Positions 12,845-18,953 of a stretch of DNA of 64,000 bases are shown in pieces. The DNA is taken from positions 1 to 64,000 of the forward strand of contig DAHVAL010000002.1 in assembly GCA_027314645.1 (NCBI GenBank), written 5' to 3'. A program made the position numbers and the translations under genes. Below the pieces are notes generated by a model that saw nothing but the letters and a program-made list of their open reading frames with translations, had not been told where the DNA came from and made no database searches. How positions within the stretch are numbered: the first letter of the stretch is position 1; every line of letters begins with the position of its first letter. Source of the stretch: Nitrospirota bacterium. GTDB taxonomy: Bacteria; Nitrospirota; Leptospirillia; Leptospirillales; Leptospirillaceae.

Positions 12845-14155
12845 TCAGTTCGAGGGGTTGACGGTTTTTCTGAAGGAGGCCAGCGTCGGATCGATCGAGA
12901 TGGGTTCCGAAAGCGCTCCCGCAAGAGCTTCCATCGTTTTGAGGCCATTTCCCGTAATATAGGCGACGGTCAGGTCCTTCCGGCCGATCCGGCCTTCTTC
13001 GCACAGTTTTTTGAGCGAGGCGACGGTCACCCCTCCCGCCGTTTCGGCAAAAACCCCTTCCGTCTCGGCAAGAAGCTTCATTCCCTCGACAATTTCAGGA
13101 TCGGTGGCCGCCGCGATCGCTCCCTTGGACTTGAAGACCACCTCCAGGGCGTAGAATCCGTCGGCCGGATTCCCGATCGCCAGGGATTTTGCGATCGTCT
13201 GGGGCTTGACCGGGATCAGATGGTTTTTTCCAGAAACAAACGCCCGGTACACGGGAGAGCATCCTTCCGCCTGGGCCCCATTGACCGTGAGCCGATCGTT
13301 CGGGGCGACAAGCCCGAGCTTTTCGAACTCCTGGAACCCCTTGCGAATCTTGGTCAACAGGGACCCTGAGGCGATGGGCACAACCACCTGGTCGGGGATC
13401 CGCCATCCCAGTTGCTCCGCCGTTTCGAAGGCCAGGGATTTCGAGCCTTCGGCATAATACGGCCGGATATTGATGTTGACGAAGGCCCAGGGATATTCTC
13501 CCCCGATCTCGCTGCAAAGACGGTTGACATCATCATAATTTCCGCGGACGGCCACGACCGTCGGGTTATAGATCAAGTTCCCCAGAACCTTCCCCGCCTC
13601 AAGGTCGTGGGGGATGAACACGAAGCACTTCATTCCGGAACTGGCCGCATGGGCCGAGACGGAGTTGGCGAGATTCCCGGTGGACGCGCAGGCCACGGTG
13701 TCGAATCCCAGCTCGCGGGCCCGTGTCATCGCGACGGCCACGACCCGGTCCTTAAAGGAAAGGGTCGGATGGTTGACCGTATCGTTCTTGATGTAGAGAT
13801 TGTCCAAGCCCAGATACTTTCCAAGGCGCTTGGCATGAATCAGCGGGGTCATGCCCGCATGGAGACCGACGGTCGGCTCCCCGGTGACCGGGAGCAACTC
13901 ATGATAGCGCCACAGGGACTTGGGACCCCCTTCGATCGAGCTGCGGCTGATCCGCCGGCCGATCGCGGCATAGTCGTAATCCACCTCCAACGGTCCAAAA
14001 CAGAATTCACAGATATGGATCGCCACGGCCGGATAGAGGCGTCCGCACTCGCGGCACTTCAGTCCCTTTATCTTCGACTCCTTCGAGGAAGGGGCGTTTC
14101 CGCCTTCCGCGCGGGTTCGTTCAGATTCCTGGTGTGGTGCAGACGGGCTGTTCAT
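12845..14155 (-). CDS. thrC: Threonine synthase with N-terminal zinc ribbon
   Basis: CxxC zinc ribbon (LKCRECG...CEFCFG), PLP Lys motif NHPTLSFKDRVVAVAM, CASTGNLANSVSAHA. Confidence 0.9.
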   Translation of the reverse strand: MNSPSAPHQESERTRAEGGNAPSSKESKIKGLKCRECGRLYPAVAIHICEFCFGPLEVDYDYAAIGRRISRSSIEGGPKSLWRYHELLPVTGEPTVGLHAGMTPLIHAKRLGKYLGLDNLYIKNDTVNHPTLSFKDRVVAVAMTRARELGFDTVACASTGNLANSVSAHAASSGMKCFVFIPHDLEAGKVLGNLIYNPTVVAVRGNYDDVNRLCSEIGGEYPWAFVNINIRPYYAEGSKSLAFETAEQLGWRIPDQVVVPIASGSLLTKIRKGFQEFEKLGLVAPNDRLTVNGAQAEGCSPVYRAFVSGKNHLIPVKPQTIAKSLAIGNPADGFYALEVVFKSKGAIAAATDPEIVEGMKLLAETEGVFAETAGGVTVASLKKLCEEGRIGRKDLTVAYITGNGLKTMEALAGALSEPISIDPTLASFRKTVNPSN

Positions 14156-14930
14156 AATCGATTAACTCCGTGATCGTAGGATGATCCCCGCAAACGGGGC
14201 ACTTCGGACTTCGGCGAACCGAAACGGGCCGGAAGGTCGTGGTCAACGCATCGTAGGTCATGAGGCGGTTGGTGAGGAGGTGCCCTTTTTCGAGAAGAAT
14301 CTTGATCGCCTCTGTCGCCTGGATGGTGCCGATGACGCCTGCGATGACGCCGAGAACCCCCGCTTCGGAACAGGTGGGGACGGCTCCGGCGGGCGGAGGC
14401 TCCCTGAAAAGGCACCGGTAGCACGCCGATTCTCCCGGCAGCACCGTCAGAACCTGCCCCACAAACCGCAGGATTCCTCCATGGACGAGCGGCTTCCGGG
14501 TCATGACCGCGAGATCGTTGATGAGGAATTTGGCCGGAAAATTATCCGTCCCGTCGAGGATCACATCGTAGCCGGCCACGATCTCGCGGGCATTGGCCGC
14601 TGTCAGGGCAAACGGATAGGTCGTCACCGTCACGTCCGGATTGAGCCCCGCGATCTTTTCCCGGGCCGATTCAACCTTCGGACGATCCAGGTCCTCGGTT
14701 GTGTGGATGATCTGCCGCTGAAGGTTGGAAAGATCCACCACGTCCATATCCACGATTCCGATGGTCCCGACGCCAGCCGCCGCCAGGTACAATGCGGCGG
14801 GGCTCCCAAGCCCCCCGGCTCCGATGATGAGAATGCGGGAAGAAAGAAGCCGTTTTTGCCCTTTTCCCCCGACCTCCGGCAAAAGGATATGCCGGGAATA
14901 TCGCTCGATTTGGTCTTCGCTCAGTTCCAT
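14121..14930 (-). CDS. moeB: MoeB/ThiF-family E1-like adenylyltransferase (paralogue 2)
   Basis: IIGAGGLGSPAALYLAAAGVGTIGIVDMDVVDLSNLQRQIIH; PTCSEAGVLG; CYRC...CPVC. Confidence 0.92.
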   Translation of the reverse strand: MELSEDQIERYSRHILLPEVGGKGQKRLLSSRILIIGAGGLGSPAALYLAAAGVGTIGIVDMDVVDLSNLQRQIIHTTEDLDRPKVESAREKIAGLNPDVTVTTYPFALTAANAREIVAGYDVILDGTDNFPAKFLINDLAVMTRKPLVHGGILRFVGQVLTVLPGESACYRCLFREPPPAGAVPTCSEAGVLGVIAGVIGTIQATEAIKILLEKGHLLTNRLMTYDALTTTFRPVSVRRSPKCPVCGDHPTITELIDYEQPVCTTPGI

Positions 14931-14942
14931 GGAAGGGTCCCC

Positions 14943-15887
14943 TCAGAGAGAAAGATATTTTTCGATCGAAAAATATCGCTCATATCCGTCACACACCACC
15001 GTCACCACCTTGGAGCCCTCGGGAAGCGTTCTGGCCAGGGCGATCGCCCCAAACACATTGGCTCCCGAGGAGATGCCAGCCATGATCCCCTCCTCCCGGG
15101 CGAGACGGTGGGCCATATCAATCGCTTGCCGATCGGTGACGGTCAACACCTTGGTGATTACCGACCTGTCAAAATTTTTCGGGACAAACCCTGCCCCGAT
15201 CCCCTGAATCCTGTGGGGGCCCGGACTGCTTCCCGACAGAACGGCGGAGCCCGCCGGCTCCAAGGCCCACACTGGAATGTCCGGCGTCATTTTCTTCAAG
15301 AATCGCCCGGTTCCGGAAATGGTTCCTCCGGTTCCGACCCCCGCGACAAACCCGTCCGGAGGGCCCCCGAGAGCCTCCACGATCTCCGGCCCCGTCGTCT
15401 TGAAATGGGACTCCGGATTGGCGGGATTGTCAAACTGCCTGGGCATGAAGGAGCCCGGCTCCTCTTTCATGATTGCCTCGGCCCGGTCGATGGCGGCCTG
15501 CATTCCTCCGGCAGACGGCGTCAATTCGACGACCGCGCCGAGGGCGCGAAGATGGGAGACACGCTCCTGACTCATTCCTTCCGGCATGACGATCGTCACG
15601 GGGTGCCGGTAGAGGACGGCGATTTGCGCGAGCCCTATCCCCATATTACCACTCGTCGCTTCGACGATGCGGGCCCGGGGCTTCAGAAGACCTTGCCTGC
15701 GCGCATCCTCGATCATAAACAGGGCCGGTCGGTCCTTGACGCTTCCCCCAAGGCTCCGGGATTCCAGTTTGACCAGAATTGTCCGGCCGATTTCGAGGCT
15801 GATCCCCGAGAGGGAAACAAGCGGGGTGCGCCCAATCAGCTCAAGAAGGGGAGAGGCAGGGGCCCCTCCCTTATGTGGGGACGCCAC
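14943..15887 (-). CDS. cysK: Cysteine synthase (CysK/CysM family, PLP)
   Basis: LGGSVKDRPALFMIEDA, ATSGNMGIGLA, GVGTGGTISGTGRFL. Confidence 0.9.
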   Translation of the reverse strand: MASPHKGGAPASPLLELIGRTPLVSLSGISLEIGRTILVKLESRSLGGSVKDRPALFMIEDARRQGLLKPRARIVEATSGNMGIGLAQIAVLYRHPVTIVMPEGMSQERVSHLRALGAVVELTPSAGGMQAAIDRAEAIMKEEPGSFMPRQFDNPANPESHFKTTGPEIVEALGGPPDGFVAGVGTGGTISGTGRFLKKMTPDIPVWALEPAGSAVLSGSSPGPHRIQGIGAGFVPKNFDRSVITKVLTVTDRQAIDMAHRLAREEGIMAGISSGANVFGAIALARTLPEGSKVVTVVCDGYERYFSIEKYLSL

Positions 15888-16147: not shown

Positions 16148-17404
16148 CTAGGTTCCCTGCTCCCATGACGCCAGATACCTCTCCTGCTCGGGGGTCAGGG
16201 TATCGATCCCGATCCCCAGAGCGGCGAGTTTTCTCCGGGCGATTTCCCGGTCGACCTCTTTCGGGATGGTCAACACATCCTTGGGAAGGGTCTTGGCGTG
16301 CTGAACGATATATTCGGCACCCAGGGCCTGGTTCGCAAAACTCATGTCCATCACCTGTGCAGGATGGCCTTCGGCAGAGGCGAGATTGATCAGACGGCCC
16401 TCTCCGAGAAGCATGATCCGGCGCCCGTCCTTCATGACGTACTCTTCCACGAAGTCCCTGAGGGGGTTCTTCTTGACGGAAAGCTTTTCCAAGGCGGGGA
16501 TATCGATCTCGGCGTTAAAGTGGCCGGAGTTGCAAACGATCGCTCCATCCTTCATGGACTTGAAGGCGTCTTTGGCGATGACGTTGATGTCGCCGGTGAC
16601 GGTAATGAAAAAGTCGCCGACCTTGGCCGCCTCCCGGATGGGCATCACCCCAAACCCGTCCATCGCCGCTTCCAGCCCCTTGATCGGATCGACCTCGGTG
16701 ACGATGACTTTGGCGCCCATTCCCGAAGCGCGGCGGGCGATTCCCCGTCCGCACCACCCGTAGCCGCAGACCACCACCGTGGAACCGGCGAAGAGACGGT
16801 TTGTCGCCCTCATGATGCCGTCGAGGGTCGACTGGCCAGTCCCGTAGCGGTTGTCGAAAAGATGCTTGGTTTCGGAGTCGTTGACCGCGACAATCGGATA
16901 CCCCAACACCTTGTTTTTGGCCATGGCCTTGAGCCGGATCACCCCCGTTGTCGTCTCTTCCGTCCCGCCGATGACATAGGGAAGAAGCGCCTTGAGATCG
17001 GAGTGGAGCATGGACACGAGATCCGCCCCGTCGTCCATCGTGATCTGGGGCTTCACTTCAAGGACCGCCCTGATATGGCTGTAATAGGTATCATGATCCT
17101 CCCCCTTGATGGCAAAAACCGGGATGCCATCGTTGACCACCAGGGAGGCGGCGACATCGTCCTGCGTCGACAGTGGATTGGAGGCACACAGCATGACATC
17201 GGCTCCACCCGCCTTGAGAGTTTTCATCAGATTGGCGGTCTCGCTGGTCACATGAAGGCAGGCGGCCACCTTGACGCCCTTGAGAGGCCTGGTCTTGGCA
17301 AAGTCTTTGGCAATTTTGGCCAGGACAGGCATGTCCCGGCTGGCCCATTCGATCCGGCTCGCGCCTATGGCCGCCAGCTTTTTATCCTTGATGTCACACT
17401 TCAT
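16148..17404 (-). CDS. ahcY: Adenosylhomocysteinase
   Basis: 418 aa; [37 protein letters not shown], full-length SAH hydrolase features. Confidence 0.96.
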
Positions 17405-17446: not shown

Positions 17447-18604
17447 TCAGGCCAGTCTTTCCGCTTCACGTCGGAGACTTTCGGCCATGTCAAGCTTTTC
17501 CCAGGTAAAGTCCTCTTCGTTCCGCCCAAAGTGCCCGTATGAGGCCGTCTTTCGGTAAATCGGCCGTCGGAGCTTCAAATGCTCGATGATCCCCTTGGGA
17601 GTCAAGGGGAACAGTTCGCGGACAACCCCCTCGATCAGTCGGTCGGAGACGGGTGAGGTCTGGAAGGTATTGACGTGAACGGAGACAGGGTCTGCAACAC
17701 CAATGGCATAGGCGATCTGAACCTCGCATCGCTTGGCGAGCCCAGCGCCAACGATGTTTTTTGCAACATACCGTGCCATGTAGCAGGCGGACCGGTCGAC
17801 CTTGGTGGGATCCTTCCCGGAAAAGGCCCCTCCCCCATGACGTCCAGCGCCGCCATAGGTATCGACGATGATTTTCCTCCCTGTCAGGCCGGCGTCCCCA
17901 TGCGGCCCGCCCGTCACGAACCGGCCGGTGGGATTGATATGGAACGTCACCGGCCTTTGTCCCAGAAGATGCTCGGGAAGGACCGGCCGGATGATCTTCT
18001 CGATCACATCGCTGTAAATTTCTTCCTGCGTCACTTCAGGAGCATGCTGCGTGGAAACGACGACGGTGTCGACCGCAACCGGAGTGGCGCCATCGTATTC
18101 AAGGGTCACCTGGGCCTTTCCGTCCGGGCGGAGATAGGGAATGACCCCCGATTTTCTGAGATTTGAAAGCTGGCGTGTCAGGCGATGCGCCAGAAGAATC
18201 GGCATCGGCATCAACTCCTCGGTCTCGTCGGTGGCCATCCCAAACATGAGTCCCTGGTCGCCCGCTCCCCCGGTATCCACCCCCATCGATATATCGGGAG
18301 ATTGCGAGTGGATCGTGGTCACAACGGCACAGGTCTTGTAGTCAAACCCAGAGGATGAATCCGTATATCCGATATCCTTAACGACTTCGCGGGCCACTTC
18401 GTCAAAGAGAACATTGTGTCGGGCGGTGATCTCACCCGCCAAAACGATGAGACCGGTGGTCGTCAGAGTCTCGCACGCCACACGCGCCATCGGATCGTGG
18501 GAAAGGATCGCATCAAGAACGCCGTCTGAAATTTGGTCGCACATCTTGTCCGGATGCCCTTCAGTCACGGACTCCGATGTAAACAGATAGTGGCTCTTGG
18601 CCAT
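17447..18604 (-). CDS. metK: S-adenosylmethionine synthetase
   Basis: [61 protein letters not shown] precedes ATG 18604. Confidence 0.97.
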
Positions 18605-18627
18605 CAAATCCTCCATGGATTGAAGAC

Positions 18628-18661
18628 AAAAAAAAACCCAGTGCTAATCAGCACAGGGTTT
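18628..18661 (-). terminator. Intrinsic terminator / riboswitch expression platform in the metK leader
   Basis: Minus-strand RNA AAACCC-U-GUGCU-GAUU-AGCAC-U-GGGUUU followed by a U-tract; lies between the aptamer and the metK SD. Confidence 0.88.
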
Positions 18662-18681
18662 ACCGAGATCATCGAGTATCC

Positions 18682-18737
18682 TGGACTTTTAGCACTTTTT
18701 TTTAAGGTGGTTGCAATAGTCTCAAATCACTCCACCA
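18682..18737 (-). ncRNA. SAM-II-like riboswitch aptamer upstream of metK
   Basis: Minus-strand RNA GGUGGAGUGAUUUGAGACUAUUGCAACCACCUUAAAAAAAAGUGCUAAAAGUCCAG. P1 is GGUGG/CCACC and the pseudoknot is GACU/AGUC. UGAUUU, UAUUGCAA and GCUAAAA match the SAM-II core as I recall it. Confidence 0.82.
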
Positions 18738-18753
18738 AGTTGTATTGAATCAA

Positions 18754-18782
18754 ATACTAACGCGTGTTCCGGGTGGTGTCAA
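18754..18782 (-). promoter_or_regulatory. Putative sigma70 promoter of the metK operon
   Basis: Minus strand TTGACA - 17 nt - TAGTAT, placed so transcription would begin about 10 nt before the aptamer. Confidence 0.72.
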
Positions 18783-18877: not shown

Positions 18878-18953
18878 GGGGCTGTGGCGCAGTTGGGAGC
18901 GCGCAAGACTGGCAGTCTTGAGGTCACGGGTTCGACCCCCGTCAGCTCCACCA
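18878..18953 (+). tRNA. tRNA-Ala (anticodon GGC), CCA encoded
   Basis: Cloverleaf: acceptor GGGGCTG/CAGCTCC, anticodon stem-loop CAAGA-CTGGCAG-TCTTG, T-loop TTCGACC, 3' ACCA. Confidence 0.95.

Follow-up and report, generated by a model that had tools for sequence, protein, structure and literature searches.

A probable SAM-II transcription attenuator upstream of metK in a Leptospirillum-like family of Nitrospirota

Results

A SAM-II leader upstream of metK

In the window (the whole 64,000-nucleotide stretch of contig DAHVAL010000002.1 that was analysed) we find a leader that is, with a probability of about 0.84, a SAM-II riboswitch controlling metK, and probably the downstream genes too, via transcription attenuation. 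The basis for this reading is an aptamer match, a terminator, the gene context, conservation among related leaders and a fold switch in a thermodynamic model. Since the aptamer strand required for SAM binding is also required for the antiterminator, SAM should favour termination.

Reading the sequence of the 64-kb window along the minus strand, on which all coordinates below lie unless stated otherwise, a promoter-like site is followed by the SAM-II aptamer, a terminator and metK. The site resembles a σ70 promoter (TTGACA-17-TAGTAT, 18754..18782); as about 0.9 sites of such quality are expected by chance in the scan, its support is the comparison with homologous leaders, which are preceded by similar −35/−10 boxes. 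It ends at 18754, and the transcript therefore probably begins just ahead of the aptamer. Divergent from the leader is a tRNA-Ala(GGC) at 18878-18953 of the plus strand. Downstream of the terminator, a Shine-Dalgarno sequence (GGAGG, 18610..18614) lies 5 nt before the ATG at 18604. The open reading frame list starts metK at ATG 18616, whereas homologues point to ATG 18604, where the relatives begin. The genes 3′ of the terminator are, in order, metK (methionine adenosyltransferase, 17447..18604; TIGR01034, 578 bits), ahcY (adenosylhomocysteinase, 16148..17404; TIGR00936, 624 bits), cysK (cysteine synthase, 14943..15887; TIGR01139, 369 bits), a ThiF/MoeB-family adenylyltransferase gene (14121..14930; PF00899) and thrC (threonine synthase, 12845..14155; TIGR00260, 296 bits).

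The segment 18679..18741 matches RF01726 with 43.2 bits (E 2e-7) and RF00521 with 30.2 bits. By these matches it looks like an aptamer of the SAM-II class and a predicted SAM binder, in agreement with the earlier note on this DNA, which had proposed a SAM aptamer from the letters. With metK and ahcY downstream, it is placed before SAM and methionine genes. Its RF01726 score is 0.8 bits under the gathering score of 44, which is why a whole-window scan at gathering scores returns only two tRNAs; ten orthologous leaders exceed that score, with 44.6-48.2 bits. The consensus stretches AUUGCAACC, AAAAAA and UGCUAAA agree with RF01726 in the alignment, and the P1 helix is present (GGUGG:CCACC, 18736-18732:18710-18706). 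The 5′ side of P2 consists of GACU (18721-18718) and UUGC (18716-18713) and its 3′ strand lies at 18693-18684, with GACU:AGUC and UUGC:GC-UAA able to pair. The P2b 5′ strand of other genera has a different sequence (GGUAU, GGUCU) that is, by eye, a weaker match to the invariant AGUC.

The intrinsic terminator (18628..18661), which the earlier note had also proposed, lies between aptamer and metK. From its 5′ end it has a lower helix AAACCC:GGGUUU, a U-U mismatch and an upper helix GUGCU:AGCAC closed by a GAUU loop, the stem spanning 18661-18634 and the tract of nine U ending at 18628. Across 24 distinct SAM-II leaders of the phylum, 97% of the cells of its main helix are paired. The mismatch, U-U or U-C (18640/18655), is kept in all leaders of the family to which the source genome belongs. 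U18655 has no partner in the terminator of any leader of this family (U or C stands opposite), yet it is invariant. In the antiterminator it pairs with A18682, and the invariance is as expected if the U is retained for that fold.

The terminator could in principle be constitutive, the aptamer acting otherwise (on RNA stability, or as part of a small RNA) and the fold switch described below being incidental. There is a precedent in the Sinorhizobium meliloti metA terminator, which follows a SAM-II aptamer and was not predicted to be riboswitch-controlled (PMC9373788). We consider this improbable for the metK leader, as the terminator stands directly 3′ of the aptamer and competes for an aptamer strand, the Shine-Dalgarno sequence lies outside both elements, and conservation of the antiterminator extends over different genes and families.

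Competing folds of the leader

Folding was modelled thermodynamically and free of pseudoknots, with neither kinetics nor ligand; locking the aptamer 3′ strand served as a stand-in for SAM. The minimum-energy fold of the source leader is the antiterminator, and locking flips it to the terminator. With structures enforced, the antiterminator has −32.6 kcal/mol, the terminator −30.1 kcal/mol and the antiterminator deprived of its lower helix −22.3 kcal/mol; with the strand locked, the terminator (−27.6 kcal/mol) is favoured over the antiterminator (−20.3 kcal/mol). In the folding models it is the lower helix, worth about 10 kcal/mol, that tips the source leader toward antitermination. A clean minimum-energy flip from antiterminator to terminator upon locking is seen in 8 of the 12 leaders of the genus. 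In the other genera (g2-g5) the terminator is the more stable fold by 1.7-3.5 kcal/mol, and in family f7 and more distant leaders the model favours it even without SAM, so that kinetic control or weaker antitermination is predicted there.

The strand over which the folds compete is AGUGCUAAAAGUC (18684..18696), which pairs either in aptamer P2 or in the antiterminator. In the latter, the minimum-energy fold has a lower helix, AGUGCUAA:UUAGCACU (18696-18689:18647-18640), and above it pairs that are absent from the earlier note, namely AGU:GCU, CAGG:CCUG, UAC:GUA and CGA:UCG.

A conserved hairpin predicted to capture the terminator 5′ arm

The upper part of the antiterminator is a hairpin (18650..18687) in which the aptamer P2b strand and the following CAGG (AGU-C-CAGG) capture the terminator 5′ arm (CCUG-U-GCU), through AGU 18687-18685:GCU 18652-18650 and CAGG 18683-18680:CCUG 18657-18654. 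When the terminator 3′ arm is left out, as in transcription, all 24 distinct leaders fold the P2b strand onto the 5′ arm, in an identical register (AGU:GCU as p1-p3, an unpaired U, CAGG:CCUG as p4-p7). The pairs were tabulated in this anchored register, since in several rows of the MAFFT alignment the P2b strand is off by one base. Position p1 is A-U in 21 leaders, G-U in one and unpaired in two; p3 is U-G in 21 and C-G in three; p5 is A-U in 19, G-U in three and G-C in two; p7 is absent in three leaders and p4 in one. The changes thus appear mostly consistent or compensatory, retaining the pairs. Within the source family AGUCCAGG is invariant bar one A to G and the apical part of the hairpin varies freely; the antiterminator strands are near-invariant there, and true double changes are few, with one clear case (A-U to G-C). 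The stability of the hairpin in a single leader is not exceptional when set against shuffles of the linker (z about −1 for the source leader). As judged from these comparisons, the putative 5′-arm-capturing hairpin is the conserved competitor of the terminator, across genes and families.

The lower helix is an extension within the genus

The earlier note had taken the antiterminator to be just an 8-nt helix between the aptamer and the terminator 3′ arm. The complement itself stands: AGUGCUAA and UUAGCACU match perfectly and in the place claimed, with about −10.3 kcal/mol, and the helix is present exactly in the minimum-energy fold of the leader (leader z = −2.94). A run of at least 8 nt between the 16-nt aptamer segment and all downstream sequence arose at a frequency of 1e-4 in 20,000 dinucleotide shuffles of the downstream part, and at 0.4% with the GCAC of the terminator 3′ arm taken as given. 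As the sole conserved antiterminator the helix was nevertheless rejected, because complementarity on the terminator side is lost outside the genus and the conserved part holds the 5′ arm.

All 8 pairs are perfect in the source leader only. Seven to eight contiguous pairs, G-U allowed, are kept in 10 of the 12 leaders of its genus; other genera of the family have 5-6 with G-U and 4 without, and the remaining lineages 5-7 with G-U counted. The GUGC:GCAC core, or G-U variants of it, is kept in all 24 leaders, the outer A-U in 7 of the 24 and the inner U-A/U-G in 14. The complementarity among homologues that the earlier note had proposed as a check therefore holds for this core, occasional wobbles included, and fails for the terminator side beyond the genus. 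No covariation of the lower helix is demonstrable among the homologous leaders, as its aptamer side never varies. In a permutation between seven lineages, matches of the aptamer to the 3′ arm were no longer in own than in swapped combinations (3.6 versus 3.4 nt), leaving unsupported a general SAM-II rule whereby the aptamer strand mimics the terminator 5′ arm. From the distribution of pairs, the predicted lower helix is a genus-level extension of the longer hairpin, not its conserved core.

These data bear on how many arms are captured. We put at about even odds that the pseudoknot strand that binds SAM serves twice, extending the 5′-arm hairpin and, in this genus, mimicking GUGCU to take the 3′ arm as well. 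A less probable but serious alternative is that the riboswitch is real and the 5′-arm hairpin is the entire antiterminator, the 8-nt match being a by-product of the resemblance of the GUGC arm and of U-rich loops. This would accord with the universal occurrence of the 5′-arm hairpin among the leaders, with the restriction of the perfect match to the source genome and with the lack of any general excess of aptamer/3′-arm complementarity in the lineage permutation. Capture of both arms is favoured by the 8-10 kcal/mol that the lower helix contributes, deciding the fold in the source leader and most of the genus, by the retention of its 7-8 pairs in 10 of the 12 leaders of that genus, and by U18640, which complements aptamer A18696 and not the terminator's own U18655. 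If true, a nested two-arm antiterminator would result for SAM-II. A few point changes should suffice to tell 5′-arm from 3′-arm capture.

Distribution of related leaders

The order of promoter, SAM-II aptamer, terminator and metK recurs in all five genera of the source family. A SAM-II match was not found in three genomes of this family, two of which also gave no metK match, the third having its metK cut at a contig end. In another family, f7 (L020, L021 and L022, match 1501-1563), a SAM-II leader with terminator precedes not metK but a JAB/desampylase-like gene, as read in L020. An in-frame TGA in metK of three f7 genomes was discarded as a candidate, being the normal stop at the end in the two that were read. 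Second SAM-II leaders with their own terminators, and not before metK, occur in two related genomes, at L024:1450-1566 (minus strand) and L025:752-866 (plus strand); the open frame that follows encodes a 75-aa protein for which no Pfam or NCBIfam match was found, and these leaders are possibly orphan switches or small RNAs. Four more SAM-II leaders were found in Nitrospirota (L103, L175-L177).

Loci L056-L135 show SAM-II leaders to be widespread among Bacteroidota, where most precede metK and an evident terminator is often lacking; they are widespread also in Acidobacteriota, where they have terminators, and in Fermentibacterota. Three Fermentibacterota-type MAGs (L105, L106 and L107) have metK SAM-II leaders in which an aptamer tail GCCGUC complements GACGGC in the terminator 3′ arm over 6 nt, an arrangement similar to that of the source leader but in other letters.

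Discussion

On this model, the metK leader would bind SAM and terminate transcription in the following sequence of steps. When SAM is scarce, the pseudoknot 3′ strand AGUGCUAAAAGUC would be free, and its AGU together with the following CAGG would pair with the terminator 5′ arm once that arm is transcribed. As the 3′ arm emerges, UUAGCACU would join AGUGCUAA and close the long antiterminator, allowing RNA polymerase to proceed into metK. With SAM bound, AGUGCUAAAAGUC would be locked in P2, the antiterminator would lose its lower helix and AGU:GCU, and the terminator would form, stopping transcription and turning metK off. The competition between aptamer strand and terminator that the earlier note had envisaged is borne out by the fold model and the comparison of leaders; its direction, with the terminator formed when SAM is bound and the antiterminator when SAM is absent, is what we infer as well. 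A switch of the opposite sense, with the ligand favouring read-through, is a formal possibility for which we found no support and which we hold to be very improbable: in the model, P2 formation takes away the antiterminator strand, feedback repression of metK by SAM is expected, and known SAM-II terminator arrangements read as OFF switches. Terminators accompany many SAM-II RNAs, which were put forward as OFF switches (PMC1273637).

RF01726 comprises the 'SAM-II long loops' of Weinberg et al. 2010, listed for Bacteroidetes and marine sequences, a range that is exceeded in the genomes analysed here (PMC2864571). The metK leader shares with RF01726 and RF00521 the P1 helix, a long L1, GAUUUGA, AUUGCAACC, AAAAAA and UGCUAAA, as well as its place before a SAM-pathway gene. 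It differs from the RF01726 RNAs of that report in belonging to a Leptospirillum-like Nitrospirota family, in standing on metK and in having a terminator attached. From the S. meliloti metZ SAM-II RNA, a terminated product of about 100 nt arises, and its level is raised when SAM is high (PMC9373788). The two leaders have in common a SAM-II aptamer with an intrinsic terminator behind it, SAM being predicted to terminate; they differ in gene and phylum, and are likened by layout rather than by the pairings of their platforms. In the literature that we searched, mostly outside subscription journals and Rfam member lists, we found no description of a SAM-II metK switch in Leptospirillum.

The metK leader would thus be a conventional OFF switch for SAM, from an established class, and the two-arm antiterminator a modest new detail; the general picture of SAM riboswitches is unchanged. 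Within the SAM-II class a translational example has received the closest study, and to our knowledge little work has gone into the expression platform of the class. What the leader may add is a specific SAM-II expression platform, located before metK in bacteria that are probably acidophilic iron oxidisers. In SAM-I (S-box) attenuators an aptamer strand and a terminator arm compete through an antiterminator and SAM turns expression off; the metK leader has the same kind of competition. Its aptamer is, however, unrelated, its competing element is a pseudoknot strand whereas that of the S-box is the P1 3′ strand, and in its own genus the leader is predicted to capture the terminator 3′ arm as well.
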